Shown piece by piece: positions 20,848 through 58,477 of a DNA stretch of 64,000 nucleotides. The translations under genes were made by a program, and so were the position numbers. Each line of letters starts with the position of its first letter. Position 1 is the stretch's first letter. Source of the stretch: Paramyrothecium sp. XJ0827 (lineage: Eukaryota; Ascomycota; Sordariomycetes; Hypocreales; Stachybotryaceae); contig JAJFPB010000007.1 in the NCBI GenBank assembly GCA_020881915.1, positions 310,001 to 374,000 on the forward strand, written 5' to 3'. Under the pieces are notes generated by a model, which ran no database searches, was not told the DNA's origin, and saw nothing but the letters and a program-made list of their open reading frames with translations.

Positions 20848-22964
20848 GTTAAGTCTTCCAAAGTCTATCAGTTCAAACCAGCATGTAATTACTTTCTTTA
20901 TTTGATCAAATGATCTGCATAAGATTTGAATGTCTTTGTCAGCATTCTCCTCCTGCTCCTTTTACTCCAGCCTCCTTCTAACAAATAATGAGTGCTACAT
21001 ATGCGTGTTCCTGACTATGACACAAGAATCTCATTCTGTTCTGTAGTTTCGAAGACTGTGCATGCAGTTAACACAGTGTTCACAGTCCGCGTGAATCACC
21101 CTTGCTTTGCCTGGTCATAGTAAGCAATTCATCTCGAATTCATGCAAATGCCTCTGCTCTGATTGCGAGTTGAACCGTTGGTATTGAGAGCAGTGTGTAC
21201 TCCAAGAGACGACCCTACTTCTCCCAAGTTTGCAAAGAGGTAGTATTTGCTGAGAAACCTTATTAAGGACGATCGATCATCCAGCAAGCTCGCTCAGACT
21301 TGTTACTAAAATCTCTGTTGCATTCGCTTCACTTGCTGTAAGAAGCCCATGCGTTTCTCCTCGGTACTCCGAAATGTGCCTGCAGTAGAGCACTGCTCAA
21401 ATTGCCTACGCATTGCTGGATAAGCCTAAGTCTGTAGGGCTTTAGCGAAACGAGAAGCTACTGAGTGAGGTTCATCAACTTTGTCACCAGTACTCAGCAG
21501 TATAATCCCACAGGAGAGCTCCGTTTCGCAGATAAGACAAAACTCAAGTTGGGCGTAAATCTGCGTATTCAGTAAGTTATTCGTATTCTTGTCGTTGATG
21601 GTCTTGCTTTGTTGGTCGCCAAGATAGAGTCACTCATCTCTGCTGGCATACCCTCCTACGCTGCACCATCGAGGTCTCAGGCTTTCGTGGTTGAGAAGAG
21701 CCCAGAGAGCGGGCAGACCTATAGAGGATGACCTTGAAAGCTAGATCAACGTGGATGGTCTTTCATTTTATGCGAAACCCTCCGTCCTCGGCAAATTGAT
21801 CTTCCCCGACCAGGATCTATACCTGTTACGACCCTCGTTTTGGGCACTTGAGTTGAACGGAGATCGAGCCTGGGGTTCTTGGCGAAACTTCGCGATGCAA
21901 ACTAGTGGCAACATTTTCATTAGAGCGGATAACCAAGTGCAGGTGTTCAAGTTACCTTTTAGGCAGGTACTAAGCCTGTTGTTCCGACGGTCGTTGATGA
22001 TGAGGAGACATTAGTCGCGTAAATACCAGCAACAGTCCATATTAGCCACATGAAACTCGGATACGGGGCGTCAAAGGCACTGCAATACCGTACTTTCCTC
22101 CGTAAACGGTGCCGGGACTTGACTACCGTAATGGCCGGCTATGCCGGGTTGGGAAGGAGAGTCGTCGAGTAAGATAAAGGTGCATTGCTGGAGTCGTGTT
22201 CCACCAATCGATTTTGTGGGCGGCGATCGGCGAGCCCCAACTAGTCACTCTCTTTCAAACTGAACAACCCCTGCCATAATCCAGCTACGGACCACTTCTC
22301 CTTCGTGTCTCTTTCTACTTGCCCCTTAACGCTTAACCGCCAAGGCTACACGCCAAGCGCCAAGCGATGGCCTTCCCTTCTCGACTTTCCGGGGAAATAT
22401 CACTTTCAGCGGGTCCCGCAATTGCCGAGCTCGGCAGAAAGGGCTGGGTCTGCGGAGGACGAAGCCACGTCGGTACGCTGGCTCGGCGGATACTCTTACA
22501 CCGAAAGATCAGGATGTCTTCGGTTTGAGTCTAGGTCCAGAGCTCAAATTCACTTAGTTTGGCACCCTGATGGCTTGAAATGCAGATAGCAATCCGTAGA
22601 CGCGCATTGCAACCTGTCAGCGCCTGTTTCTCGAGTTAGAATCGTGCGACATGGCTAGCTGCCCGACGTCCTTCCAATTGTGGACCAAGGCCCGGCTTGG
22701 CCAACCCAAAATGGTGATAGGGCTATGTTCTTAGCTTGTCTTGTCCAGTATAGGGTCGAACAGAAGCCATGCTCCTTCAGCCGTGACATACCAAAGTTGT
22801 CGGAAGGACTCCTATCGTACAATTTCAAGGACGACAGGCTGTTGGCACGAAAACTATAAGTATCTTGTTACAGTGACGCTTTTCCAACCAGAGGCCATCG
22901 ACACCTCAATCCTCATCGACTGACCTGTATCTTCTTGTCTCTTTCTCGGCACGTCTCTGTCAAC
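20848..22964. other. 2.1-kb intergenic region
   Basis: There is no supported gene. A run at about 21591-21731 is open on the plus strand and protein-like (LLVAKIESLISAGIPSYA) but ends in TGA, with no exon to join. An 87-codon frame at 21751-22014 is likewise isolated. These may be gene debris. The last 700 bp act as promoter for the deuterolysin gene. Confidence 0.35.
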
Positions 22965-41265: not shown

Positions 41266-42894
41266 TCAAGGTAGAAAGCCAGTGGGCAAGTTCTCGTCGA
41301 CGAGATCGAACCAAAGCCCCTTGAATCCGGAGTCGCGCGCCATCTGTACCCTACGTACAAAATCCAAGGTCGATTGTCCATGTTGGCCCAGTCGGAACCT
41401 CAGACGCGCAAACGCCTGGTGAACAAGAGCTCCGGGCCCAGGCCTCTCCAGCATGGCCACCAGCAAGGGAAAGTCCAAGCCCAGCCCGGTAGCTCCTCCT
41501 GGAGGTTGGTGCGCTAGGGGTGTGAGATCCTCCAAGATTTGGTCTGCGTATATTTGCGCAATATTATCATTCACCCCGAGTGGGAAGCGCAGGCGATGAA
41601 TTACGAGCAGGGCAGCCAAGCGATAAACCGAAGCCTGCGTCAAGATGGCTATGGAATCAGATTCTCCATATGCGGAGAAGAAATTTGTTGGCAGTTGTGG
41701 CTCCCAGGCGATGAACTGTTTCTCGATAGTCATGTATGGATTTTCTGCATCAGCCACGGGCAATGCCTGAACTCCTTCAAATTTGCAACCATGGCTGAGG
41801 ATGCATAGGTCGTAAAATAGGGTGAGTAGGGGTGCAGTAAGACCAACAAATCTGTCAACATTGTGTCTGTCTGTCCTTGGTATCCTCACAACCGGTATCT
41901 CACGTCGAAGAACACACCCGACCGTGTCTATCAATATGAGTGGTAAGACGAAAGGGTCTATGGTGGGCTCGTGGATCAAGCCCGCCATGTAAGGCTTGAT
42001 GCTCAGTAATGCTCCTGTAACAATGGGGCGCGTGCTAGGAATTTGCATCATAGAATCGTAAACCAACATGAGTTGTCCTAGTACGGCCACCACAATGGCA
42101 TCTTGAGCTTGCTTGATGGAAGCCACTAGTCTTGTGAACTGTTGTAGGCAGTGGGCGGCCAGTTTGGTCTCCACTGACCCATTCCCTTCGTCTGCCGTGA
42201 GTGGGCGCCTACGCAATCTAAGCATAGCTAGCACTGTAGCGTAAGCATCGATCAAAACGTCAGGTGCATAACCGAGGACGCTTCTGACATCACGTTGAAG
42301 CTGATCTGTGAAGCTAACGCCAAGCATGAAATGTCGATGCAGTTCAAAGAAGCCCTGCCTTGACTCAATAAAATAACATATTTCCGAATACCGTGGGACG
42401 CGAAATCGGAAATCCAGTGGGCTGCGAGGAATTCTGAGAGGCCCTGGGGAAGCTACAACTGCTTCTTCCGTTATATATGTTTGGGCGGTGGACGTGCATG
42501 GCTTTGCAGGAGTTTGCCAGCTAACTGATTGCAGAGTTGAAATCGCACCTTGCCGCGTGTTTTCTCTCTCCTTGCGGCTTTCTGCTTTACGATCCTTGTC
42601 GCCACGCTTTGATACTGTTTCTTTGTTCCGCAGGCTAGGCAGAAGTACCATGTATGTTCCCTGGTTGTGGTCAACAACTTTGACATCTGGTGGCCGGCCC
42701 ATGCGCCTCTTTGCTTCAAAGTGGCACGTCTTTTTCAAGGCTTTACACCGACTGCACGAAGCCTGGCCTGTTTCAATGATACATCTCTCCTTGCATTGAC
42801 GACAACGCTCGCACGCACGTCTCAGGGGGTTCATCCTTAGTGGAACTCGTGTAGCCATAGGCACATTGGTGCATGGAAATACGGGCTGATGCAC
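41266..42894 (-). CDS. Zn2Cys6 fungal transcription factor, intronless
   Basis: A single exon of 542 codons. The zinc cluster is near residue 28: CERCRQCKERC, eight residues, CSRC, six residues, C. It is immediately followed by a basic stretch with an AT-hook-like core (KRRMGRPPDVK). The rest is the regulatory domain (SYSEICYF-like region through LLVIHRLRFPLG). ATG codons at 42894, 42858 and 42834 are all possible starts. It follows two acyltransferase genes on the same side of the locus and could be their regulator; that is layout inference only. Confidence 0.86.
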   Translation of the reverse strand: MHQPVFPCTNVPMATRVPLRMNPLRRACERCRQCKERCIIETGQASCSRCKALKKTCHFEAKRRMGRPPDVKVVDHNQGTYMVLLPSLRNKETVSKRGDKDRKAESRKERENTRQGAISTLQSVSWQTPAKPCTSTAQTYITEEAVVASPGPLRIPRSPLDFRFRVPRYSEICYFIESRQGFFELHRHFMLGVSFTDQLQRDVRSVLGYAPDVLIDAYATVLAMLRLRRRPLTADEGNGSVETKLAAHCLQQFTRLVASIKQAQDAIVVAVLGQLMLVYDSMMQIPSTRPIVTGALLSIKPYMAGLIHEPTIDPFVLPLILIDTVGCVLRREIPVVRIPRTDRHNVDRFVGLTAPLLTLFYDLCILSHGCKFEGVQALPVADAENPYMTIEKQFIAWEPQLPTNFFSAYGESDSIAILTQASVYRLAALLVIHRLRFPLGVNDNIAQIYADQILEDLTPLAHQPPGGATGLGLDFPLLVAMLERPGPGALVHQAFARLRFRLGQHGQSTLDFVRRVQMARDSGFKGLWFDLVDENLPTGFLP

Positions 42895-43859
42895 AACCGC
42901 TCGGAAATTTAAGCGAATCAGAATCGGGTGTAATAATGAAGAAACCTATCGATATCCGGGCTCCATGGAAAGAGTCAAATGGCAAGTACAACGAGTGGAA
43001 ATAGAGCGGACGCATGACGATGCCACGACTGACCAGAAAGGAAATGCTGTCTCGGCCATCGAGAAGAGAAAAGGACATGGCATCGGATGTCGTGGGGATC
43101 CACTTTAGGGGCTCGTTTCTGACTCAGCACTCCAAGACGATTATGGATCATGCCTGAGACTCGTCTAACATGTTTCTGGGAATGCCTCTCTGTTTTGATC
43201 TTTGGGGTAACATGAGCCTCGCAATCAACGTCTTGGGGAAAAGTCTCTTGGTTCCTGGGACAAGATTGCCAACGGCCTCCAATTGGGATCAAAACGCAAT
43301 TAATGGCAAAAGGACGTGCTGCACTGGTTCGCGGCTAATCCCACCGTTTTCCAGCTCCGGCTGGTGAGCCTTGCTACTGGGCCATGACAGAGGTACCAGA
43401 CCTCGAAACATACATAATGCGGCCTCATGAGAGCGACCGCAACATAATATGTGGTAGTCAGGTAAGTAAAGCCTGCTGGAGCTGAATAGTTTGGCATATA
43501 GTGGCACGAAATGCGAAGTCGTAGAAAAGAAGAATAAGCACACATTTAATTCCCTATTCTGTCTTTGGTTCACGGTAAGCCTTCGGTCACGATCCATAAC
43601 TTCTCCACTTGACCCATACAATGCATTGGGCCGATCGCATATGCGCATCGCATCAAGATTGTGGCCGCCGATCTTGATCTCAGACTTGGCGCGAAATCCG
43701 GATTTTTCCTTGGTGTGGCGCAACCCTCTGCAGCCCAACAAGGGTCTGACATCATACACAAGAACATTTTATACCACCCTCCGCATGAAGAGTTTGGCAT
43801 CCCAGAATTGGTCATAATTTTGTGTCTGTATAACCGGAGACCCATTTCCGAGTTACAAC
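42895..43859. other. divergent intergenic region
   Basis: This separates the regulator (minus) from the small membrane protein (plus). Open frames on both strands at 43289-43900 overlap each other and carry no domain. Confidence 0.4.
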
Positions 43860-44282
43860 ATGGGCATTCCCTACTCAAAAGAGGTTCAAGGGGCCTTTGA
43901 ACAGGTCACGCCCCTGGTCGCAGCCGGGTTTGATGTGCTGAAGACGACCAAGAACATCGCCGTCCTCCTCGCTGTCATCCAAGTGCTTATCGGCGTGCTC
44001 CTCACCTTCGTGCTCTTCGCCATTTTAGCGGTCGCCTACTCAATAAACCCCGACTTGGAAAAAGAAAGGCAAGAGCTGGTGACACCATTACTGCAATGGC
44101 TGGCTAGCTGGGTCTTTACCTACGGCACCTTGGCGTATTGGTGCTTGAAGGTCTTTATTGTATTATCAACAGCATCTCTCGGTGTCTTCTTGTGGCAGGG
44201 CTCGCTCTCTGGCTACTCTTTGCCGAACTCTCCCCCCAATGAGCGAAATGATGGAACTGAAGGAGAGGAAGGCAAAGAGTGA
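43860..44282 (+). CDS. small membrane protein with N-myristoylation motif, unknown function
   Basis: A 140-codon exon. MGIPYSKE fits the myristoylation rule (Gly2, Ser6). After an amphipathic segment there is a long hydrophobic helix (NIAVLLAVIQVLIGVLLTFVLFAILAVAYSI) and a second hydrophobic region (WLASWVFTYGTLAYWCLKVFIVLSTASLGVFLW). The C-terminal 30 residues are acidic and hydrophilic (PNERNDGTEGEEGKE). Composition and codon use look genuine. I do not recognise the family. Confidence 0.6.
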   Translation: MGIPYSKEVQGAFEQVTPLVAAGFDVLKTTKNIAVLLAVIQVLIGVLLTFVLFAILAVAYSINPDLEKERQELVTPLLQWLASWVFTYGTLAYWCLKVFIVLSTASLGVFLWQGSLSGYSLPNSPPNERNDGTEGEEGKE

Positions 44283-45167: not shown

Positions 45168-48098
45168 TTATTCTCGTTGTGGTTGACTGACGTCCAACCG
45201 GTCGTTGCGGATGAGTCGACGAAATATGTTGCCGAGCGCTTTTCGTGACTCGAAGAGCGGCCACTATATGTCAAGCGTCAGCTTCCGCGCTGTCGCACCG
45301 GAGGACGGTACTCACAAAGGTAATGAGGACTAAGCTGATGAGCACAAATGTTGCTGATGCGACACATTGAAGAACGAAGAGGCCCCTGGGGTAAATAACC
45401 GCAGTACCAGCAAGCGGAGCAGGAATAAGAACGACTGAGTAGAACGGTTAGCCATTTGCTGAAACATGGGGCATACTCGTAACTTACGGATAACCAAAAG
45501 AAAGAGTGCAGTGATGATGCGAAAACGAATTTGCGACGCCTCAAGCTTCACAATTTCCTCTGCATATTGGGCGTCACCCTCATCAGTTCGTCCTCCTCCT
45601 TCGACTCGATCGAGAGCAGGTTCCCACGCAGGGTCTTTTGACTTGATGGCACCACCCTGACTGCATCGAGGCGCCTTCTCGCTCGAGTTCGTGGTTAGTT
45701 CCAACACTGTCACACCACGGCCGATGGCTCTGGTGAGCTCAAAGTCGAAAGACGCTGGCTTGACAAGAGATAGCCCGATAGATACGATGGCACCGGTGCC
45801 CAAGGCTGACAGAGATCCGGCGAGGATCACTTTGCTGTCAGTGAGGGTCGTGGTATTGATGCTTCCCAAGGTTGTCACAGCAGTGACGTGCCAGCCTACC
45901 ATGCCCATGACCAGGCCTCCGATAACTCCGAAGATGGCGCCTGTCTTGTTCAGTTTACTCCAGCACATCAACAGACCGATGGGGAAAACAGCGCCTGACG
46001 TGCACACTGCCATGAGGTAGAAGAGAAAGTTGAGGTCTAGACCGATGTGCACGAAGGCAGTATCAATGCTGGCGAGAAAGATAGCCCAAAGGATGACAAC
46101 TAGCAGGTGTTAATGAAATGAAATTCAAATAATGTACCATTGACCTGCCGGAATGGTTCGCCCTCATCATCTGGACATTTGTCGCTGTTTTGTTGATGTA
46201 TTCACGATAGCTTTCCACATTAGCAATTCATCCAGATGGCTGGAGGACTGGAGCTGGTGGGTTTGCTTACATGTCATATGAGAAAATGGTCGACACTGCA
46301 ACAAACTGGGCAGATAGAGCGGAAGTAGTTGCCTTGGGCGAATCAGAAAGTGAATCACCAGGGTATCATCTTGTACAAACCATGAAGGCAATTATGATAT
46401 ACATCGCCGGACCAGCTTTACCCAGGATTGCCACACTTGCGAATGGCCCAGCAAGTCCTCTAGCAGAAAGATATCATCTTCAGTTAATCCGCATCAAGCA
46501 GGAGATGGAAGTAACTTACGCGCCAATTTGTGGCAGAGTGAGGCCATCGGGGTAGGTTGGGAAGGCTGGATTATTTACCAGTGCCCTTGCGGCCAGCCCC
46601 ATTGAGGACCCGATCCCGAGAGCAACTGTATTGAGGCATGAGCATCTCAACGTAATCCTGGAAGCGGGGCGTTTAGTCGGTTCCGTTACCGGAGAAGAAG
46701 AAACAGCCGGCGAAAATAAAGGCTTTGCTGGTTCCAGCTGGTCGGGCGGCAATGCTTCGTTGCCAATAGGCCCTGCCATCTGCTATTAGCTTTGATATGG
46801 CATTTGGACTTGCGAATACTCACTGGTCACAGAATGACAGTCCAAAGAAGGAAGTTGCAGCAGTTACAGCATAATCTGTTAACTTGTTAGTTACAGCCAG
46901 TCGAGGGCGAGAGGGTCACATACACATGCCGCCATCACTTCGGAACGAGAGATAGGATTCATGCCCGTTACCTACCACTGGACTCGCCTATAAGACGTCA
47001 ACGACCGAGACCCTACAGTGAAAACGTTGTAGAAAGAATTACCTCAGACGCTTCAAGTAGAAGGTCGTACAATTTGCCGGGAGAGCCGATTACGTCGCCT
47101 CGGGTGTAGGTCGCTAGTACAAGGACGAGAAGAGACGTGAAGAGGATAACGCAGTGGAGATAGTCCGCCCTGACGTACACCGATAAGTAACAACTGCGGT
47201 TCATGGGTGGCACATCACATACACAAAGGTGGCTCGAAGACCACCCGTCAACACTGTTAGGGTCAGTGGCTGTTCACCAGGGAATTGGAATGAACACGGA
47301 CCATAGGCAACGATGACCAATGGCAGCAGCCAAACAGCGGCATACTGGCTGATACCCGTCAATCCAGCAATGACTCCAGCACCGCCGATGAGGATCTCGC
47401 TGCCGACCACAAAGTTTGCTACTAGAGCAGCAAACATGTACGCAAGATGCCCATGAGTGCCAAAGCGTACCTTGGCCACTTGTAGAAAGCTGCAAGAGAT
47501 GGATAAGCCTCGACTCCGCAACCCAAAAACATAATCAATAGGGGAGGGCCATATTCCTTACGTCGAGGCGCCGCTGGCGTTGGCCTTGATCTTGGATGAG
47601 ACAAATGCGAAAGCAGCGATTTCTGGCTCGTTGTTAAGATGCATGTACAGAGTTGAGGTTATCTCGCGCGGGAAGCCTACCAACGAAACCTCCCATGCCG
47701 AACCAGTATGGTATCGAAACCCCGTAGAGATAAGTCAGCGTGCCCGTCTGCAGAAACACGGCTGCCCATATCCAAGCAGACGCGATACCCACGGAGAGCC
47801 TTGAAAGATGTGCGTTAGTTGAAGGTCATTCTCCGCTAGGGTCAGGTCATTGATGTACATACATTCCAGTCTTGATGGCTCTGGAAGCTGAAGAGAACTC
47901 TTCCACCTTGCCGGGATGAAAATTAGTATATCGTCTTTGCACCCAGGTGATAAAATTCATGAGTGCGGCGAAGAAGACACCGCCGACCAAAACTACGTGA
48001 AGTCAGCCGCCATGGTGAACATGATACACCGAGTCAATGGGAGGATGAAAGCGAGCCTTACTAGTCGCGTATCCTGCACTTTGGGGCAGTAGAGCCAT
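45168..48098 (-). CDS. DUR3-type sodium:solute symporter (urea/polyamine-like permease)
   Basis: About 17 small exons can be chained in phase, from MALLPQSAGYAT (48062-48098) through 47863-47992, 47681-47799 and 47562-47622 to WPLFESRKALGNIFRRLIR with stop at 45168-45170, giving roughly 680 aa. The chain follows the fungal urea transporter pattern throughout: QRRYTNFHPGKVEEFSSASR, SAWIWAAVFLQTGTLTYLYG, GGAGVIAGLTGISQYAA, GGLRATFVADYLH, AYWQRSIAARPAGTSK, NPAFPTYP, ATTSALSAQFVAVSTIFSYD and HIGLDLNFLFYLMAVCTSGAVFP. It would import a small polar nitrogen compound across the plasma membrane. One intron near 46148 needs a GC donor (GCAGGT) to stay in frame. The gene is divergent from the Zn2Cys6 regulator at 48587, and its promoter holds a TCGGATGGCCGA site. 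The substrate need not be urea. Confidence 0.88.
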
Positions 48099-48586
48099 GA
48101 TGATTGGCTGGATGTAATGCAGTACAACACGCCCTCGTGGTAATACCGACTGCTTGGCTCATCTGGGGGTCCTGCGTATCCCCACCCTGCAAGAGAACCT
48201 GCATGTTTATAGAGACTAGAGAAGAAGCACTGCCAACTGGATCCTCGTCAATTTCGACTTGCGCATGGTCTCGGCCATCCGAGGGCGTCTAGCTCGATCG
48301 CTCAAACGGCAGGGTCCGGCTCTCTCGGGTCGGTGGAGCCTCAAAACCCGAATTATCTGGCGCTAAGAACCGTTAATTACCAAATCCTGCAACATCAATT
48401 GCTCAAAACACTGGGGGTAGCACGCCATGGCCCATCTCTTATCGTTACTATCGCAGAGGGGCCCAAACCGGCTCTCGTTCTTCGCACGGCAGCCATGCGT
48501 CCGTGTCGATATGCCCCAGGTCTATGGCCAACCCCGTCCACATCGCCAATTGACGCCAGCTTGATGAGCTGTATTCCCGGTTAAAC
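48099..48586. promoter_or_regulatory. divergent promoter: symporter / Zn2Cys6 regulator
   Basis: This 488-bp region lies between two divergent genes and contains the 12-mer site at 48271-48282. The site lies about 175 bp from the symporter ATG and about 305 bp from the regulator ATG. Confidence 0.6.
48271..48282 (-). promoter_or_regulatory. CGG-N4-CCG site (TCGGATGGCCGA)
   Basis: On the minus strand this reads TCGGATGGCCGA, identical to four sites upstream of the rhodanese/FMO and NTF2-like genes. The CGG...CCG inverted pair is the form bound by Zn2Cys6 dimers. Confidence 0.6.
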
Positions 48587-51461
48587 ATGCCCAAGCACAA
48601 TCAACATGACCAGTCGGTCGATCTGGCCGACATCAGATGGAAGATGCTGGTCGCTTGCGACACATGCAGGCGAAGAAAAGTGCGGTGCGACGGCCAGAGA
48701 CCGTGTTTGAAATGCAACAAGGCCGGCAAAGCATGCACTTTCTCGACGCCGTAAGTTCATGCGAACACCAAAATGGTGCATGTACTGAATGTGATTGACA
48801 GGAGGCGAGTCGTTATGCATCCTGACCCAGCAAGGTAAACATAGATCATCGGGAACGTGAGGGGCAAATGCTCACGATTCGTGACTAGAGCCTCAAAGCG
48901 TCCGCGCACAGTGTCTTCCTCCCCACGACCCCCGTCTCCGAAGAGATCAGTATCAAATTCAACATCACCAGAGTCTATATCTCCTCCTCCGACTTCCAGA
49001 ACTCAATCTGTGGCAGGCAACCTCAAGGAATACGGAGTGAGTAATGCAAACCCTCTAGGCTCGTTCTTGATCAATCGCCTGACAATGGTTCTCCCAGCCC
49101 AAGACCTCGTCCTCATCCCAGTCTTGCAAGGAGCACCTCCTGCTTATTGACTCTGATGACCAGATTGTCTACTCAGGACCATCTACGGGAATGCCTCTCT
49201 TCGCTCGCCTTGGTTTGCTCCGTACCGTCGAGGTTTCCGAGCGCGACAACAGGGGCACTGAATTTGCATCGCACTCTGCGGACGCACTGGGCATTACTGG
49301 ACCTACGACATCTTCTGACGATTACCTTGACCTTTGCTTGCAGCATTGTCCACAGGAGCTCATGACCAAATTGATCGACCACCATCGGACCAACCGTGAG
49401 ACCTCTCGACCCTGGTCTCAGTTGAGAGACAAGGCAAACTAACCATCTCCTACAGCGATTTTCTTTCCATTACTTCACACACCGTCGTTCTTATCCGTAA
49501 GACATGCCGAATTGCGTGAGATCAAGAGAGCTAACGTTCGGCACAGGAATTTGCCGCAATCACCCAACGCCGCTTGCCATGCACTGCTCAATACGGCGCA
49601 CTGCTGATGGGCATCCTCGCCGTAACGGTGCGTCTTGTCGAAAGTGCCAGGGCCCTGTTCCCGCCTTCGGAGCGCCTTCAAGCCGGCGAGATTTATTTCG
49701 AACTCGCAAAGGAACTTCTCCAAATCAGCACGAATAAGCTCGATATTCGATACATCTTAGCTCTCTACCGTTGGTTTGGCCAGTTACTCTCCATGCCATC
49801 TTACTTCTGACTCGAAGCATAGATCTCGCATTGTTTGCGGAGGGTCGCACCGGCTCTGCTGGTTAGTCATTTCTTGAGACACCTTAAAGAGGCGAGTTAC
49901 TGATGTTTTGTTTCAGGCTCGGTCTCTAGCTTTATTGCCGAGGCTATTGGCCTAGCATTTACCACTGGCCTGCATCGTAGCACTGCAGAATTCAACATGG
50001 ATCCGGTAACGCTGCAGGTATGTGGCTCTCTGACGCTCAAGTGACGAGCAAAGTGCTAAAGCAACGCCAGATCCGCACCCGTTTGTTTTGGGCCCTGTAT
50101 ACACTGGATACTACCCTTGCCTATTCCCAAGGACGCCCTCCACTCATCAGACTATCGGTGTGTATGTTTGGATGGTACCTCATTGAGCACGGAAACTGAG
50201 TTGATTACAGGCAGCGTCGATCTTCCAGTCATCGTCGACAACGACTATATCAAGAAGACGGAAATTCTTCCCCAGCCAGAGAGCGACCCTCCACTGGCCG
50301 TAGCGGCGGCTGTTACGAACATAGAGACATATATGGTCCTGGAACAGGTCAGTAACCTCCCTTGCCCTTGATGATGCACTATTGAACCATGATCTAGGTC
50401 TTGTCTGCCATCAACGCGCCATCCAGAACGCCGGCGGATGCTTATTCTCTGAGCGACCAGCGAACTAGCCGCAGCGACCTCATGAAGCGGGCGCAGACAC
50501 TACTAGACGAGGTAGGTGCCGCCGAACCAAAGCAACGGTAAGCAGTATTGATAGGGTGGAACAGATTGAGCGGCGCCTCCCGTCTTATTTATCGCAATCT
50601 GGCGTCACGCCCACTGCAACCTCAAGCTTTCTCTTCTCTTGCCGCGTCCGGACCGTTTTCCAATTCGTCCGGACCCTGATAGCCCGTCAAACCCTCATTG
50701 AAGAGCTGGACTCTGGTGTTGATCCTGGAGAGGATGCTAGCCTCGCAACTTTGGAGGCCTGCCGCCTCTCGGTCGACACGGTGAAAACCTATTCGCGCCT
50801 ACGGCACCTAGGTCTTCTTCGCTTCTGCGGATTCCACGCCGTATCTCATGTGACTGCTGCGGCTCACACACTCATTGCGTGTATGTTGAAAAGTTCTCAT
50901 CTCGCGCTTGAGCATCGGCCCGACCTGCTCACTGCTATTGACATCCTGCTCGTCTCGTCGTCTCTCTTTCCGCACGCGGAGACGGTCGCCCAGAGACTAG
51001 TTCAATTATCTAGGAATCTAGATCATAATCATGGCTCGAATACCCAAAGCGAAGCCGTCGCCATCCGGGTGCTAGCTAGGAGAATGGCTCGGTCTTCCTC
51101 TGCAGAGGAAACACCTGTGCTTACGCCACCATTATCTTTGCAATCCTGGAATGGTGATTCTACTGAGCGAAGTGATGCTGATGCTCTATTCAAGCATGCC
51201 ATTGGGGTCAGACCATCTACCCCATCACCTGCATATCGTCAATTCGTTAACTCGAATGACACTCTACCGCCTGCCCACCGGGATGAAACGACGATTAACA
51301 GCGCGACTGACGATACCGTATGCTCCTTGCCTTCTTCAACTGCCCTCGATCCAATAGTTCCAGATTCACTTGAGCCACAATGGATGTACAGTATATCGGA
51401 TCATACAGTATGGGGAGACAGCTTTTCATTCCTAAACGACGGGTTATTTAGCAAATTATAG
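48587..51461 (+). CDS. Zn2Cys6 transcription factor, candidate regulator of the 45-57 kb cluster
   Basis: Twelve exons chain in phase (48587-48750, 48802-48834, 48889-49036, 49098-49395, 49456-49496, 49547-49773, 49818-49861, 49917-50017, 50071-50161, 50211-50347, 50398-50511, 50565-51461), giving 764 aa. The zinc cluster has canonical spacing at residues 25-51: CDTCRRRKVRC, DGQRP, CLKC, NKAGKA, C. A basic, Ser/Pro-rich linker follows. The fungal_trans domain is clear: IFFPLLHTPSFLS, AQYGALLMGILAVTVRL, EAIGLAFTTGLHRSTAEFN and RTRLFWALYTLDTTLAYSQGRPP. It sits between the symporter and the FMO/rhodanese/NTF2-like genes, all of which carry the same CGG-N4-CCG site, and one copy is in its own promoter. 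It is therefore the natural candidate for the site-binding protein and may autoregulate. Confidence 0.88.
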
Positions 51462-51673
51462 GGCACTTGGAATATAACATACGAAATCTCACTATTTCGC
51501 GCAATTTTCAATCAACTCTGCTTGTGATCCACGAATATGAGACGTCCGCTGCTTCACAGCTTGATGCCATTTCAAGCCCTATCACGTTTATGAGAAGACT
51601 CGAAGAGGTTATTGTGCCTCTATCGAAAACGTTTACACTACAATATAGCGAACAGGCTTAATTCAGCTCCCAA

Positions 51674-53565
51674 TCAATCGATGAGCGCTCGAATATGCTT
51701 CTTCCAAGCCGGCCACGCCCCCCATCGGCCTTGAGCGTCAACTTCTTCAGGTCCTCCCTCGCCAATCAATTTCAGCAATTTTTCAGCATATTGGAATCTG
51801 CGAGCACACGAAATTAGCTTGACGAGTTATCAGCTGGAAGAAACACTAAGCAGTCTCACTCTCCGGGGTGTCCAAGGACCAAGACAGAATGCGAATCAGA
51901 TTCCTCGTCGCCGTGGGGTTTCAATTCGATCAGCGCGCTACCCGACCAGTAGGCCGCCACGACACGGGCTTGCATCTCGGAGAACGGCCACGGGATGGCT
52001 TCGGCGTGAAGTAGGAGGAACGCAAGGGTCGGGTCTGGAAGGTAGAACAATTGGTGGGCGTCAAGATTATGGACGCCTGTTCGAGTGTTGGTCAGTGATA
52101 TCTCTTTTGGATCGGAGGGAGAGATGGAGACGAACGATGTCCGCCATCTAGACTGGCCTTGGCGATTAAGTCCTTGGGTGGTCTAGTAAGCTCTGGAGGC
52201 ACAAAAGGGTGTCTAATCAGTGGCTGTGTGTCGAACGGAGAGTCAGATGGGCGGCAGAATTCGAAGCGGGACAGATATCCAGTAGCAAACATGATGACCT
52301 GTATGGTGTCAGCTCTTCTCAAGACGAATCTGTGGACAAGAACTTACATCAACATCATCCAATCGGTCTCCTGAGAGAGTGATGACCCTGCCAGTGGGCG
52401 AAGTGGATGACGGTGACTCGACAGTTCGTATGGGTGCAATAACATTGATGTATTTGGACCACCCTTTGTCGAGTTCGGTATCATAACGAGTCTTGCCGCT
52501 CCGGAGAGCACGGTACACTCTTCGAGGTGCCAGAGGCGAATTTTCAACACAAAGCATCCCGAGCTCTCGCACAATATCCGCACCTGTGGTGTTTTAGCGG
52601 AGAATCGTCACCAATGACCAAGAGTTATCTGCTCACTCGAGGGCCCAGCCCCGACCACGATTATAGTCTATTTGATGATCAGTAATACGATTTCGAAGAA
52701 CAGGATAGGGGGGACAACCTGCCTTTTCAGCAAATGCTTTCGCATCTCTATACCATCTTGAATGCAAGATTTCGCCCTTCCAGGCCCACAAGTTGTCTGT
52801 GTGCGGGATGAACGGCCTCGTATCTGACCCATTGGCGACAACGACATGGTCGAATCCTTCCACAAAGGTCTTACCCACGTCTCGCGATTGGCTAGTCACG
52901 GATGGCGTCCATTCGATCAACCATCTGCTTTTCGAGGTATGATCTGGTGGTGGATGTCGGAGCCGGGTAACAACGCGGTTGAAGCGAATGTAGTCGATGT
53001 ACTTAGCAGCGTGTTTCTGCTGATACCGGTAGACGACATCATGGGTGGGACTTTCTTCGGTACCCTGGGGATAGGGGTGCGAGCGATAAGGCATGATATC
53101 CTTGAACGAGCTGATGGTGAGCACATATTCGAGAAACTTGATCAAGCCAATAATCACCTTGGGTGTGTTGGCTGTGACGCCAGCATACATGGGCGTGGGA
53201 GCTGGGGCTGGCTGGCCAGACCGTTCTAGGTCTGTCAGAGCAACGGCATGGCCATCCTCATCGAAGGAGATCTGGCATGGGGGTGGATTTGGGTCAAAGT
53301 TCCTGATTAGATTATTCCATCAGTAAGGTAAAAACCTCTACCATGTCGGTCAGTAGGGCGCAGACTCACCAAAGGCCACCGGCACGGTCGCGCGCCTCGT
53401 ATGCCACGACTGTGAAACCCTTTCGCTTGAACTGTTCAATGGCCCCCAAGCCTCTAGGCACTAGGTATCAGCTGCGGTCTCGCCTTGGGGGGTTAGAATA
53501 TACAGGAGCACTCACGCGGGCCCACAACCAATGATGAGGACCGAGGAACGCTCTTTGATGGCCAT
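51674..53565 (-). CDS. flavin-containing monooxygenase (FMO, class B type)
   Basis: The chain runs from MAIKERSSVLIIGCGPAGLG (FAD GxGxxG, split by an intron) to the stop at 51674, about 490 aa over roughly nine exons. Key parts are EARDRAGGLWNF, MYAGVTANTPKDIMPY, the FMO fingerprint WKGEILHSRWY (x-K-G-x3-H-x3-Y), the NADPH-binding motif VVGAGPSSADIV, and IMFATGY. Two introns are notable. A 57-nt in-frame intron (53101-53157), when removed, joins NTPK to DIMPY as FMO alignments expect. A 55-nt intron (52668-52722) has a GC donor (AAG-GCAGGT). Enzymes of this type oxygenate soft N or S atoms with NADPH and O2. It shares a 410-bp divergent promoter, with two 12-mer sites, with the rhodanese gene. 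Confidence 0.85.
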
Positions 53566-53783
53566 TGTTGTCAGTCGTGATCGCATCTACTGTCTACTGA
53601 GACCAGCTTCCATACGAATGACGGAACTCTTTGCCTAATAGAGGTTCTCGAGGCATGTGTGTGATTACAAGAGATCGACCCATGCACATTAAGAGCATCG
53701 AATCTACGCCATGCAACGACCCTTATCGCGGGGAGTCGAGTGCCGGGATGATGCGCCCCAAAGCACGCGATTGTCCGAGCACT

Positions 53784-53795
53784 TCGGATGGCCGA
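53784..53795 (+). promoter_or_regulatory. CGG-N4-CCG site (TCGGATGGCCGA)
   Basis: First of two identical sites in the FMO/rhodanese promoter, 181 bp before the rhodanese ATG. Flanks differ from the other copies, so identity is confined to the 12-mer plus a preceding T or C. Confidence 0.65.
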
Positions 53796-53818
53796 CACAA
53801 GCACGTCATGACCCACCT

Positions 53819-53830
53819 TCGGATGGCCGA
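53819..53830 (+). promoter_or_regulatory. CGG-N4-CCG site (TCGGATGGCCGA)
   Basis: Second site in the FMO/rhodanese promoter, 146 bp before the rhodanese ATG. Confidence 0.65.
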
Positions 53831-54733
53831 GATGGTGACAACAGCAAGTGAATGATTAGCAAGCTCCGAATTCAATGGTATTTATCAGACTTTGGCCAGG
53901 CCTCAATCAGCCATGCTACTATCAGCGAATTTGTTTATCGAGTGAAATTGGAACCACCAGTGACAAGCGTGCATCATGTCAGTACCAATCATCATCCCCC
54001 CAGCGAGCGCATTCATCGCGGCGCCCGATGCGGTCATCCTTGACGCCTCGTGGCTCTATGAACCCGATCCGCCTACGCGCAACGCGCACCAGGAGTTCCT
54101 TGAAGGCCCCCGCTTCCCCAACGCGCGGTTTTGGGACCTGGACGCCGTGTCCGAGCCTCATCCCGATGGATACGTGTTGATGCTTCCTTCACCAGAACGA
54201 TTTGCAGCATTTGCAGGTAAGCACGGTATCACAAAGAGCTCGCATGTCATCGTCTATGATGGCGAAGGTGTCTTTGCTGCTCCACGCACAGCGTGGACGT
54301 TCAAGGTCGGTCATCCTGTTGTTTGCCAAGACACACAATAACTAAAGCAATTTGAACCGCTGGCTGATTGGCGTATAATAGGTGTATGGGCACGAGAAGG
54401 TTTCCGTGATTGATGGAGGACTCCCTCGGGCCAGGAACGAGGGCGTCAAGCTCGAAGTTGGTCTGCCAACAGAATTCAAGGTGCGTTTATTACTCCCCTC
54501 TCCCATGCTGATAGATATGGCATGGGCTCGTGCTAATAATTATTTCTGCGGTTTTGTCACAGGAGACGACATATCCCGTCCCAACTGCGCGCCACAGCGC
54601 CGTTGTGGGTATGACATTCAGTTTGCACCTAACGAAAGACGACTGGCTGATTAGTTATATAGAATTCGATGAGGTTTTACGGCTCGCGACACGACCATCA
54701 CCCTCTGCGGATGATGTTTCGCTCATAGACGCA

Positions 54734-55728
54734 CAGGGTAGGGAATCAATCCATCCACGTCAATATCCGGCTTCGTGGATTGAATTGACGGCTTACTCAG
54801 CAGAGTGCTCGTGGATTGATGTCCACGAGGCTATCTGTGGATTGATGTCCATAATATTGAACTCGTGGAAGACCCCTGTCACATTAGCTCGGATTTCCTA
54901 ATCGGGTAATTCATGAACCTATCGCCGAAACTTCTATTGCCTTACTACTGGTGCTTCTACAAACAAGCCCGTCCAACAGCCTCCTCTAATGCTGTGTCGT
55001 CAAGCAGTATGCTATTAGTATCTTCGATTATCCCGGCGCGTAACCAAGATCGCTGCGTTTGGATCAGTCCAATTGTCCCAGCGTCTAAGCGATTTCGGAG
55101 GGCGTGATCATCAACCCAGTGGCGGAGAACCGTCTCTCGCACTGAGCTCATCGCCGACACTGTCATGACGTCGAGGAATCCCAACCCTGTAATCCCATAC
55201 CCTTGATAGGGTATCATTGTCGCGCTCGACCAGCGTGAATCCTTCCAGACGCGGAAGATCCTCCACTCCTCATCACTTGTGAGTGCCCAAGTAGAAGGTT
55301 GGAGGACTTCGGGGTCCGGATCCAGAGCAGGCCGAAGGACCTCGGTATGCCGCTCGTGGTTGGTCGGTAGTTTAGGGTCTAAGTCCGCCATCTCGAAATT
55401 GAAGGTTCAATGGCTGTACGAACCGAGTAAATGGGGAACCTTCGCGTTCAGGCATTATAGCGTGTCACGACGTGTCAAAACGGGGCCGAGATATTGCCTG
55501 ATTAGATGTGTTAGTGTTTGGGTAGAGATATATGGTATATAATAACGAAATATATCGGGACATCCTACGCCTGACTAGCGTCCACGTCAATCCACATCTC
55601 AATCCACGAGCCCCTATCGGTGGATGGATGGATTACATAACAACATGTCTCGTGGATTGACGTTGACGTGGATTGAAGTCAACATATTGATCAATACCGT
55701 GGAAGTCGTGGATTGATTCCCTACCCTG
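54734..55728. mobile_element. non-autonomous hAT-type DNA transposon, 995 bp
   Basis: Perfect 20-bp terminal inverted repeats (54734-54753 and 55709-55728, beginning CAGGGTAGGGAATC) are flanked by an exact 8-bp duplication TAGACGCA (54726-54733, 55729-55736). Eight-base duplications and CAGGG-type ends are hAT hallmarks. Subterminal regions carry several TGGATTGA words in both orientations (for example 54777, 54812, 54838; complementary copies near 55592 and 55608; more at 55660-55720), likely transposase-binding sites. No transposase is encoded; the only sizeable ORF is a 144-codon minus-strand frame. Movement would need a transposase from elsewhere in the genome. Confidence 0.88.
54957..55391 (-). 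CDS. 144-aa ORF carried inside the hAT-type element, unknown function
   Basis: The ORF has a true ATG at 55391, runs 144 codons, and is less AT-rich than the element ends. The protein is soluble and slightly acidic, with no transposase DDE segments, zinc finger or dimerisation domain. Recognisable features are only a Trp-rich stretch (PSTWALTSDEEWRIFRVWKDSRW) and a C-terminal helical part (RSWLRAGIIEDTNSILLDDT). It fills much of the element's interior, so it is either a captured host gene fragment or remnant sequence under selection. Expression and function are unknown. Confidence 0.45.
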   Translation of the reverse strand: MADLDPKLPTNHERHTEVLRPALDPDPEVLQPSTWALTSDEEWRIFRVWKDSRWSSATMIPYQGYGITGLGFLDVMTVSAMSSVRETVLRHWVDDHALRNRLDAGTIGLIQTQRSWLRAGIIEDTNSILLDDTALEEAVGRACL

Positions 55729-56217
55729 TAGACGCACGACCAGTATCGTCCTATCAAGACGGTCACATACCCACATCTCTTCTCCTAGACTTTCCCTCGT
55801 CCCTCCTCAAAGATCCGGCAGGATTCACATACCTACGGAGCCCTGAAGAGCTGCGAAATTACATCGGCGCTAAGCTCGGGCAAGACGTCCTGGATCAGAT
55901 TATCTCTCATAAAGTACACGTTGTCAATAGTCAGTAGAGCCCATGTTTCTATCAGCTTTCATCATCCTCTAGACTGAGCTAACAGTGTTGCGTAGCTTGT
56001 GGAGGTGGGCTATCGGCTGCAATCAACTGGTTAACTCTTCAAATTTTGGGAGTTGATTCCCGCCTTTATGACGAAGTAAGCAGCCATGGCAACCTTAATT
56101 CTCTCGGAATGCCACTAATTGATTACTGTAGGCTTGGGGTGGTTACTCGGCCCGACACAATACTCCGAGAGTCACTGGTCCAAATCCTCTGTAGAAACCA
56201 ATTTTGACGAATATATA

Positions 56218-56716
56218 TCAAATTTCGCTATCCACGGTTTGCGCCTCCCAGAGGGCAGTCACAACATTCTGCCCGTGCCTCTCTTCCACCTTGACGATAG
56301 TCGTTGCACTCTGCTTAATTTTCTTCTCATCATCCTTCCCGGTGGTCACGTAGGCCGTCCATTGCCCAACCACCCCGGTGGAACCAGCGTCGTTTGTGGT
56401 GACAATATTGAGGTCTCTGATTTCAACAATAGAGGCATTGAAGCCGCCGCGAAATTGAGTAGTGATGAGATGAACAAATTCGGAACTAGTTAAGGAGTTG
56501 CCGTTGATCTTCGTTGAATGAGATAGGAAAGGGCTTTAGCAGACGCTCGCATACATGTTTTAGGTAGAGAAAAGGTGGTCGTATCAAACTCACAGATATG
56601 ATTGCATCTGGAGCAAGGTCTGTAGCCAGCACGGACACTGCAAGCGCATCGTCCTGCTGGAAGAGCGCGCGGGTGAAGAAAGAATCGACAAAATTGGCGA
56701 CTGGGGGCCGAGACAT
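56218..56716 (-). CDS. NTF2-like (SnoaL-like) small protein
   Basis: Exons 56594-56716 and 56218-56508 (85-nt intron, branch GCTAAAG) encode 137 aa. The second exon has no internal ATG, so the gene is easily missed. The pattern VANFVDSFFTRALFQQDD ... FVHLITTQFRGGFNASIVEIRDLNIV ... GVVGQWTAYVT ... TIVKVEERHGQNVVTALWEA is the alpha-plus-beta cone of NTF2-like proteins, which in fungi act as small-molecule binding or isomerase/cyclase-type proteins. It is convergent with the rhodanese gene, with only 23 bp between stop codons. Two 12-mer sites lie 143-183 bp upstream of its ATG, tying it to the cluster. The catalytic role is not readable. Confidence 0.72.
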
Positions 56717-56858
56717 GGCTCCTTGTTCATTTAATTCTGATTGGGTAAGTGCTTGAGATAGGGTAATTATCGAAGGCCTAATAAGAGCCGGCCGTTTTCC
56801 CCAGAGGACATTAACTTATATATGCAAACAGAAGGGGGGTAGCCACTTGAATAGGAAC

Positions 56859-56870
56859 TCGGATGGCCGA
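56859..56870 (+). promoter_or_regulatory. CGG-N4-CCG site (TCGGATGGCCGA)
   Basis: This site is 143 bp upstream of the NTF2-like ATG at 56716 and identical to the other cluster sites. Confidence 0.65.
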
Positions 56871-56887
56871 TTTATGTATGAAGAATT

Positions 56888-56899
56888 TCGGATGGCCGA
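56888..56899 (+). promoter_or_regulatory. CGG-N4-CCG site (TCGGATGGCCGA)
   Basis: Second site upstream of the NTF2-like gene, 29 bp from the first. Paired sites also occur in the FMO/rhodanese promoter. Confidence 0.65.
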
Positions 56900-58477
56900 A
56901 GTTAAAGAAAATCGGCCCATCGTTCTCACCCGGCACTATAACGGAGGTCAGGCATATCACAGAAAAATAAATAACCATCTATTTCTTGTAGACTACGTGT
57001 AACAAGACTATTTTTACAGGTCAGCCATGTAGAAAGCTCCTGCGGTTTCAGCAATCTAGAAGTGATGATAGGGAGTAGTAATATATGTAAAAGAATATGC
57101 AGTACTTATTCGAAAAGTAAATTTGAAATAGGTCAATTTAATTAAGTTGTTGATTGTCAATGTAGTAAAAACTCTTGAAGACGTCATCTCTGTTATAGTA
57201 AGAAACAATCATTTAGAAATTATCATCCGTCTGTTTAGTTTTCATGATAATAAGAAAGAAGCTCCATTTTATTGAAAATCTGGGCTTAAAATGAAGTTAA
57301 CTTGGTGAATGAATTTTCTAGCAGTGGTATAATGTTCACTCTAGCCTGCTTTGTAATTTTCGGGGACTAGATAGGTGTTGAATGCTACGAAAGGTCTTAT
57401 TTCAGGAGAATTTCCAGGAATAATTTGAGTGTCTATGTGAACAAAGCAAGCAAATCATATTAACAGGATAGCCCTGCAATCTTTCGTTGGTCTGACCGGA
57501 GTGCAGCCACTGAACTTGTTTCGTTGGCTTTGAGGCTACTCACAAGGATATTATATGAAAATCTGTACTTACGGGATTCCTCCTTATATAATGGTTACGG
57601 AGCCTCACTCGCCCTTACCATGTTCGCATTGAAGAGAGGGAGGCGCGAGAGGAAGGCAGAGAATGGATCCTAGCAGATTAAGAAGAAGAACGCGACCGGT
57701 GTTTGTATTCTTGAGCGTGGCTTGCAGACGAGTCGAAAATAAGTGAGGCATTGACCTAGGCGAGCAATGAACAGGCAAAGTCTGGTGCTTGAATGTAGGC
57801 TGCTTTCGACAGAACATGCTCGATGCGGATCTCCCCTTCGTCAAAGATTAACCAATCCCTCTGGCGAATTCACCCGCCAGACAGGAGCATCTCGCACTGT
57901 TCACTAGCCGCCCGACTTGTCCGACAACGATGCACCAGCGATAACATCTAGTATTATACGTGCCTTGTCAGGCTGCATTTGTCACCGTCATTCCAATCCT
58001 TGACACTGGTGAAAAATTAGTTCTCACTAAGCCAGATGGATGGTTTTCGTGAGACCATTTTGAAGGCCCGATGATAGCAAACACACCACACTTGCAAGAG
58101 CCTATTTTAGGTGAATAGCGGAGCAAGCTCTTATACTGCACCACGCATTATTGTGGAGGTCAAAGCTTGGTGCAAAGCTAAGCTGAGACTTCTGTTCCGA
58201 GCGGTGCTATCATTACTACAGTATCTTTTGTTCCACAGTGTTGATCATGACATGAACGAAGTTTCCAAGTTATTGTTCGATTCTTCCACAAATAGAGATA
58301 TTGTAAATATTGATAAAATGCGGTAAAGACTGTCGAAATAAGAAGTAGAAAGGTCCTCAATGCCGTGTTCTTCCCTGACTAGGCCTCCGTATCAGTCCTG
58401 CCTACCCACCGCACATATGCAGCTCATCCTCCTTCATTTCTCGAAGCGAACCGAAGCCTTTGTTTGCGTTCCAGATT

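Follow-up and report, generated by a model that had tools for sequence, protein, structure and literature searches.

Results

Five adjacent genes in a 64-kb stretch of the Paramyrothecium sp. XJ0827 genome (C13:310001-374000, referred to as the window) encode a DUR3-like symporter, a Zn2Cys6 transcription factor, a flavin-containing monooxygenase (FMO), a two-domain sulfurtransferase and an NTF2/SnoaL-like protein. The three promoters of this cluster carry five exact copies of the 12-mer TCGGATGGCCGA, an inverted pair of CGG triplets (CGG-N4-CCG), which quite likely form the operator of a small pathway-specific regulon controlled by the Zn2Cys6 protein encoded at 48587-51461. A sequence-only reading of the same DNA had described the five copies as lying in these promoters, had recognised the inverted CGG pair, had linked the sites to the five neighbouring genes that they face and had seen no further exact copy; a scan of the window agreed with it on each of these points. 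The genes and sites are:

45168-48098, minus strand: DUR3-like sodium/proton:solute symporter, 666 aa, 17 exons (one GC-AG intron), intact frame
48271-48282, minus strand: site 1, TCGGATGGCCGA, in the divergent promoter of the symporter and Zn2Cys6 genes
48587-51461, plus strand: Zn2Cys6 transcription factor, 761 aa, 12 exons, intact open frame, Pfam matches
51674-53565, minus strand: FMO, one GC-AG intron, intact frame, FMO-like in Pfam (earlier gene model)
53784-53795, plus strand: site 2, TCGGATGGCCGA, in the divergent promoter of the FMO and sulfurtransferase genes
53819-53830, plus strand: site 3, TCGGATGGCCGA, in the FMO/sulfurtransferase promoter, 35 bp from site 2
53976-56194, plus strand: two-domain sulfurtransferase (rhodanese/3-mercaptopyruvate sulfurtransferase type), interrupted by an insert
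56218-56716, minus strand: NTF2/SnoaL-like protein, 137 aa, two exons, assigned by orthologues and predicted fold
56859-56870, plus strand: site 4, TCGGATGGCCGA, upstream of the NTF2-like gene
56888-56899, plus strand: site 5, TCGGATGGCCGA, in the same promoter as site 4 and 29 bp away from it

The gene models were built without transcripts and may still retain a few short introns. GC-AG introns were introduced into the symporter and FMO models because the frames would otherwise not align with their homologues; they lie at 46149 and 52723, respectively, and have the same donor GCAGGT.

The five sites face predicted start codons at distances of 148-310 bp. Measured from the centre of site 1, the symporter ATG is 178 bp away and that of the Zn2Cys6 gene 310 bp, while the distances to the FMO and sulfurtransferase ATGs are 224 and 186 bp for site 2 and 260 and 152 bp for site 3, and sites 4 and 5 precede the ATG of the NTF2-like gene by 148 and 178 bp. 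The window contains no copy of TCGGATGGCCGA with one mismatch and a single copy with two mismatches, at position 968. Six matches with up to two mismatches are no excess over shuffled sequences (mean 5.09), but five of the six are exact, so that the signal lies in the exactness. For the pattern TCGGN4CCGA, six matches compare with a mean of 0.73 in shuffles, none of which reached six (0/100), and the sixth is the unrelated sequence TCGGTACTCCGA at 21361. When CGG-Nx-CCG pairs were counted for every spacing x between 0 and 15 in the three promoter stretches (48099-48586, 488 bp; 53566-53975, 410 bp; 56717-57216, 500 bp), only N4 was clearly enriched, with 5 pairs versus 0.26 expected; every other spacing occurred at most twice, and N3 pairs were absent from these promoters. 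The asymmetric spacer ATGG is identical in 5/5 sites while the orientation relative to the genes varies, which suggests that the binding protein recognises the bases of the spacer or depends on its shape. The sequences beside the five sites are unlike each other except for a single pyrimidine on the 5' side (C, T, T, C and T), so that a longer repeat is not the source of the copies.

The scan was extended to the whole genome (51.8 Mb, 15 contigs), where TCGGATGGCCGA occurs 14 times, five of them in the cluster; the reversed-pattern control gave 6 copies and the expectation for uniform bases is 6.2. A genome full of randomly spread copies had been named as the outcome that would speak against a regulon, and with nine copies outside the cluster, close to the approximately 6 expected by chance, this check turned out in favour of the regulon. 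Each of the nine is single and scattered, none is doubled, and there is no second group. Five lie in frames that we judged to be coding, namely those of an amino acid permease, a 566-aa open reading frame (ORF) without Pfam match, an AAA ATPase, TrkH and a GMC oxidoreductase. The other four (L001, L003, L005 and L006) are not clearly coding; the L001 copy lies between two ORFs resembling one gene and the L005 copy near an Iec3-like gene. Single and more often than not in coding frames, these nine copies do not support a wider regulon. Groups of the 12-mer are found nowhere but in the cluster, and the earlier designation as a probable regulon is fair. A single copy at L006:1501-1512 precedes the probable start codon of a bHLH gene by 16 bp.

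If 14 copies were placed at random, 1.7e-11 groups of five would be expected within 8,629 bp; the corresponding value for 641 random TCGGN4CCGA sites is 0.003. The genome has five places where TCGGN4CCGA sites form close pairs (gap 5-35), versus one in the reversed control. Of these five, one consists of a simple tandem repeat and two combine sites that are unlike each other; the remaining two belong to the cluster and are the only ones where identical 12-mers are embedded in unlike flanks.

The 48587-51461 protein is a canonical Zn2Cys6 factor with a site in its shared promoter, as the sequence-only reading had said, and matched Zn_clus with 42 bits and Fungal_trans with 59 bits in Pfam (on an earlier gene model). 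Its closest match in the PDB was Put3 (E=3.5e-4, zinc cluster only); the match to Ppr1 was weak (E=0.23). A second candidate for a zinc-cluster gene lies on the other side of the symporter:

41266-42945, minus strand: second zinc-cluster-like ORF, cysteine pattern seen by eye, weak Fungal_trans_2 match

The symporter has the sequence features of the DUR3 subfamily (Pfam SSF, E=9.3e-16; plant DUR3 structure PDB 9j7c, E=7e-95). Work on UreA of Aspergillus nidulans identified residues that are common to characterised urea transporters and are not shared by paralogues without significant urea transport (PMC4077062, excerpt), and further binding residues have been described (PMC9783183, excerpt). 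We transferred the UreA numbering by spacing onto AtDUR3, where 15/15 mapped positions agreed; this covered 5/7 marker residues and left out A374 and Y388. None of the five mapped markers is kept in the symporter (Y106F, A110G, N275A, Y437F and S446G), and N279F, T282L and T87V are also replaced, while W82, W84, G99, T133, R141, D286 and Y289 are retained. Urea as substrate is thus unsupported (0/5 marker positions kept), and the replacements suggest that the pocket accepts a different substrate, less polar than urea. The importer of the sequence-only reading is DUR3-like but lacks the signature of urea transporters.

Class B FMOs carry two GxGxxG/S/A motifs and the sequence [FW]xGxxxHxxx[YF]. 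The cluster FMO contains GCGPAG and GAGPSS as dinucleotide motifs as well as WKGEILHSRWY, and in this it resembles trimethylamine monooxygenase and other class B FMOs with their dinucleotide motifs and [FW]xGxxxHxxxY. It differs from trimethylamine monooxygenase in that its orthologue P0001 scored 69 bits versus a cut-off of 675, which sets it apart as a separate fungal family. Three orthologues, P0001, P0007 and P0015, are labelled 'formyltetrahydrofolate deformylase' in public records; the label clashes with their FMO domains and looks like a misannotation that has spread. For the NTF2-like protein and its orthologue P0151, no Pfam family was found, whereas a predicted model (pLDDT 93.5) matched NTF2, SnoaL-like and LinA structures, among the matches listed. 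There is no invariant histidine among 17 aligned NTF2-like sequences, so that a catalytic role is not evident.

The sulfurtransferase gene is interrupted by the following insert:

54734-55728: hAT-like element of 995 bp, bordered on each side by the 8-bp duplication TAGACGCA (54726-54733 and 55729-55736)

The earlier gene calls were right overall, but did not mention this insert in the gene called rhodanese. It breaks the frame after 205 modelled codons, ahead of the catalytic cysteine, whose loop CGGGLSA is coded from 55998 onwards, with the stop at 56194. By itself, the first half of the protein scored 21.5 bits for Rhodanese, just below the cut-off of 22.2; with a fragment of the second half, no Pfam match was obtained. 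Two rhodanese domains and the cysteine loop stand in one frame in the orthologue P0032, not in the window; in intact orthologues the loop follows in the same frame as the first half, and its cysteine is invariant (11/11 aligned). Since the insert separates the first half from the cysteine loop, the enzyme is probably inactive in XJ0827, and a block or a change of the pathway at this step is probable. Residues 15-285 of the 293 residues of P0032 align with a 3-mercaptopyruvate/thiosulfate sulfurtransferase (PDB 1urh, E=3.1e-28), including the cysteine loop, which reads CGGGLSA in the orthologue and CGSGVTA in 1urh. P0032 remains below the NCBIfam equivalog cut-off (115.7 vs 250 bits), and the XJ0827 gene differs from known sulfurtransferases by its interruption.

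The insert has inverted ends (CAGGGTAGGGA...TCCCTACCCTG), and the length of the target duplication led us to label it hAT-like. At least five other near-full-length copies with 96-100% identity were found among the best 40 of 55 candidates scored, and the near identity indicates a young insertion. Longer relatives match in two separate parts and span approximately 2.9 kb end to end, e.g. C14:3372573-3375468; the family is probably internally deleted and was probably active recently. Among five other copies, the 8-bp duplication is clean at L031 and L032, includes one extra base at L030 and was left unread at L033 and L034.

FMO, sulfurtransferase and NTF2-like protein form a conserved set in other fungi, in agreement with the grouping made from the sequence. 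Homologue searches gave 30 matches for the FMO (best 7,996 candidates scored), 33 for the NTF2-like protein and 321 for the first part of the sulfurtransferase, the best 120 of which were listed; the three sets of matches overlap in a scattered range of fungi. Genes of the trio are linked in 17/18 comparable named fungal genomes from two phyla, judged by locus tags for 12 genomes and by an apparent shared contig for five; the count was made without Exophiala dermatitidis, E. mesophila and others. All three genes stand in a row in Kwoniella pini, K. shivajii, K. bestiolae and Cryptococcus sp. DSM 104549, and (near-)consecutive tags were found for FMO and sulfurtransferase in Kwoniella sp. CBS 6097, K. 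dejecticola, K. sp. B9012 and K. mangroviensis CBS 8886 and for sulfurtransferase and NTF2-like protein in Capronia epimyces. FMO and NTF2-like genes are separated by one tag in Exophiala sideris, Talaromyces amestolkiae and T. atroroseus. An apparent shared contig is the basis for Geosmithia morbida, Exophiala viscosa, Eremomyces bilateralis, Meredithblackwellia eburnea and Plicaturopsis crispa, and the exception is Vanrija albida, with FMO and sulfurtransferase on different contigs. Three metagenome contigs (9,765, 12,083 and 81,046 bp) also seem to carry pieces of the sulfurtransferase and NTF2-like genes. The best sulfurtransferase match among those listed came from Stylonectria and, like the FMO tree described below, suggests an origin of the window in Hypocreales.

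Elsewhere in the XJ0827 genome, matches to the FMO reached at most 43% identity and were partial, and the sulfurtransferase matches did not exceed 35%. A further NTF2-like gene was not found, and a close second copy was found for none of the three genes. In an FMO tree of the window protein and 21 of the 30 matches, the window protein groups with Geosmithia (100/98), and the ascomycete genes stand beside those of Kwoniella and Cryptococcus with other basidiomycetes outside. The deep forks have moderate support, the tree was rooted at the midpoint and the program flagged long branches, so that a transfer of the cluster core between basidiomycetes and ascomycetes is suggested and not more. Bacterial relatives of the FMO, considered at the best 80 of 101 loci, share 22-30% identity, and a counterpart operon was rejected because neither the sulfurtransferase nor the NTF2-like protein had a relative encoded in the flanks of any of these loci (0/80, E 1e-3). 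No relatives of the three proteins were found in a viral contig collection.

HGATAR is the consensus for GATA factors, and sulfur regulators of the Cys3/MetR type have a consensus of their own. HGATAR occurs 3, 4 and 3 times in the promoters of 488, 410 and 500 bp, respectively; 10 matches in 1,398 bp compare with approximately 3.9 expected from the window mean of 2.8 per kb, a value not adjusted for promoter composition, and hint that GATA factors may exert nitrogen control. Sulfur control through a Cys3/MetR-like site was rejected, as one weak palindromic match in 1/3 promoters represents no enrichment. Release of cyanide or sulfide, which the sequence-only reading had considered, was not pointed to by anything tested.

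Discussion

Zinc-cluster proteins typically bind as homodimers to paired CGG triplets (PMC5559640, excerpt). A dimer of the 48587-51461 protein may accordingly bind each CGG-N4-CCG inverted pair and activate the symporter, FMO, sulfurtransferase and NTF2-like genes and perhaps, by autoregulation, its own gene, probably in response to the substrate of the pathway. The DUR3-like symporter would take up a small molecule that the FMO would then N- or S-oxygenate, and the sulfurtransferase and the NTF2-like protein could take part in its further processing.

Several observations weigh against this interpretation. TCGGN4CCGA is not enriched genome-wide, with 641 sites versus 1062 for the reversed control. 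The motif was assigned to the 48587 protein by position only, a coiled coil after its zinc cluster was not obvious by eye, and no zinc-cluster protein matching an inverted N4 spacing was found in the open-licence literature. In addition, the regulator gene has one site only, which it has in common with the symporter and which is 310 bp from its own start, and another possible zinc-cluster gene, 41266-42945, is close by. If that protein or an unlinked regulator bound the sites, they would be a real operator and the 48587 gene would be only a target. The 41266-42945 ORF lies approximately 2 kb past the 3' end of the symporter and combines zinc-cluster-type cysteines, seen by eye, with a weak Fungal_trans_2 match, and the CGG spacing could not be predicted here from protein sequence. 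We nevertheless regard control by another regulator as unlikely, as the zinc cluster of this ORF stays below Pfam recognition at 1e-3, the 1 kb tested at its gene (42901-43900) contains no TCGGN4CCGA, and the 48587 gene sits between the target genes with a site in its shared promoter.

A narrower regulon is easier to envisage, in which control is limited to the FMO, sulfurtransferase and NTF2-like genes, whose promoters have paired sites, while the site at 48271 is inactive or serves the symporter alone and autoregulation does not occur. Site 1 is indeed unpaired and its distance to the regulator start is the largest of all; on the other side, all of its 12 bases, the asymmetric spacer among them, agree with the other sites, and its 178 bp to the symporter ATG resemble the distances of the other sites. 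This restriction seems rather doubtful to us, although it is the strongest of the competing explanations. A very different origin of the five sites, by chance, as a duplicated repeat or as the relic of a mobile element, could be argued from the facts that the motif was picked after being seen, that the window count with up to two mismatches is no higher than in shuffles and that mobile DNA is active in the XJ0827 genome. Yet the probability by chance is approximately 2e-11 for TCGGATGGCCGA and approximately 1e-6 after allowing for all 12-mers (uniform model, repeats ignored), 14 copies genome-wide are too few for an element family, and the flanks of the five sites differ, so that we rejected this origin on genome counts and flanks and consider it extremely improbable. 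Control of all five genes by the 48587-51461 protein through TCGGATGGCCGA is therefore the interpretation that we favour.

If it is correct, the sites may extend the CGG-pair code of zinc-cluster proteins by a new spacing; this code could not be predicted here from the protein sequence. In the open-licence literature, the string CGGN4CCG was not found. CGG-N4-CCG occurs in at least three papers, and those listed treat bacterial topics, judged by titles and the beginnings of abstracts; none of the listed titles is about a zinc-cluster regulator. The 10-mer CGGATGGCCG occurs once each in two papers on Aspergillus fumigatus (PMC2988701, PMC3605576), as strings considered apart from their context. 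For a function of the FMO-sulfurtransferase-NTF2 gene set, the same literature yielded nothing relevant, and the present analysis offers an operator and a candidate regulator for this conserved fungal set. A defined cis-element with a candidate regulator makes the pathway findable and allows its substrate to be screened for. A more ambitious combination, comprising a recognition mode for which we found no precedent (a CGG pair with the fixed asymmetric spacer ATGG, N4), an undescribed organosulfur or organonitrogen pathway, a core that moved between basidiomycetes and ascomycetes and a DUR3-like importer with a changed pocket, can be put forward only tentatively, as we would sooner expect some part of it to fail than all parts to hold.

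UaY and Ppr1 recognise sites of the type CGG-N6-CCG. The proposed XJ0827 regulon would share with them the inverted CGG pair and the pathway-specific activation of genes for small-molecule catabolism or synthesis, whereas its spacing is 4 and not 6 and the sequence match of the regulator to Ppr1 is weak, as described above. The nearest published parallel that we found is TCGGN3CCGA, a site for GliZ that was proposed from sequence and occurs in most promoters of its cluster (PMC4006717, PMC7022936, excerpts of both). In both systems a zinc-cluster gene lies inside the gene cluster and inverted TCGG...CCGA sequences are found in the cluster promoters. In contrast to the GliZ type, the XJ0827 spacer has 4 and not 3 bases in 5/5 sites and all four spacer bases are constant, the genes encode import and oxidation instead of toxin synthesis, and the regulator has a site in its shared promoter, while the proposed GliZ site is missing from the gliZ promoter according to the excerpts of these papers. 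The XJ0827 system is thus best read as a cluster-specific zinc-cluster regulon of a known type that would be distinguished by an invariant 4-bp spacer.

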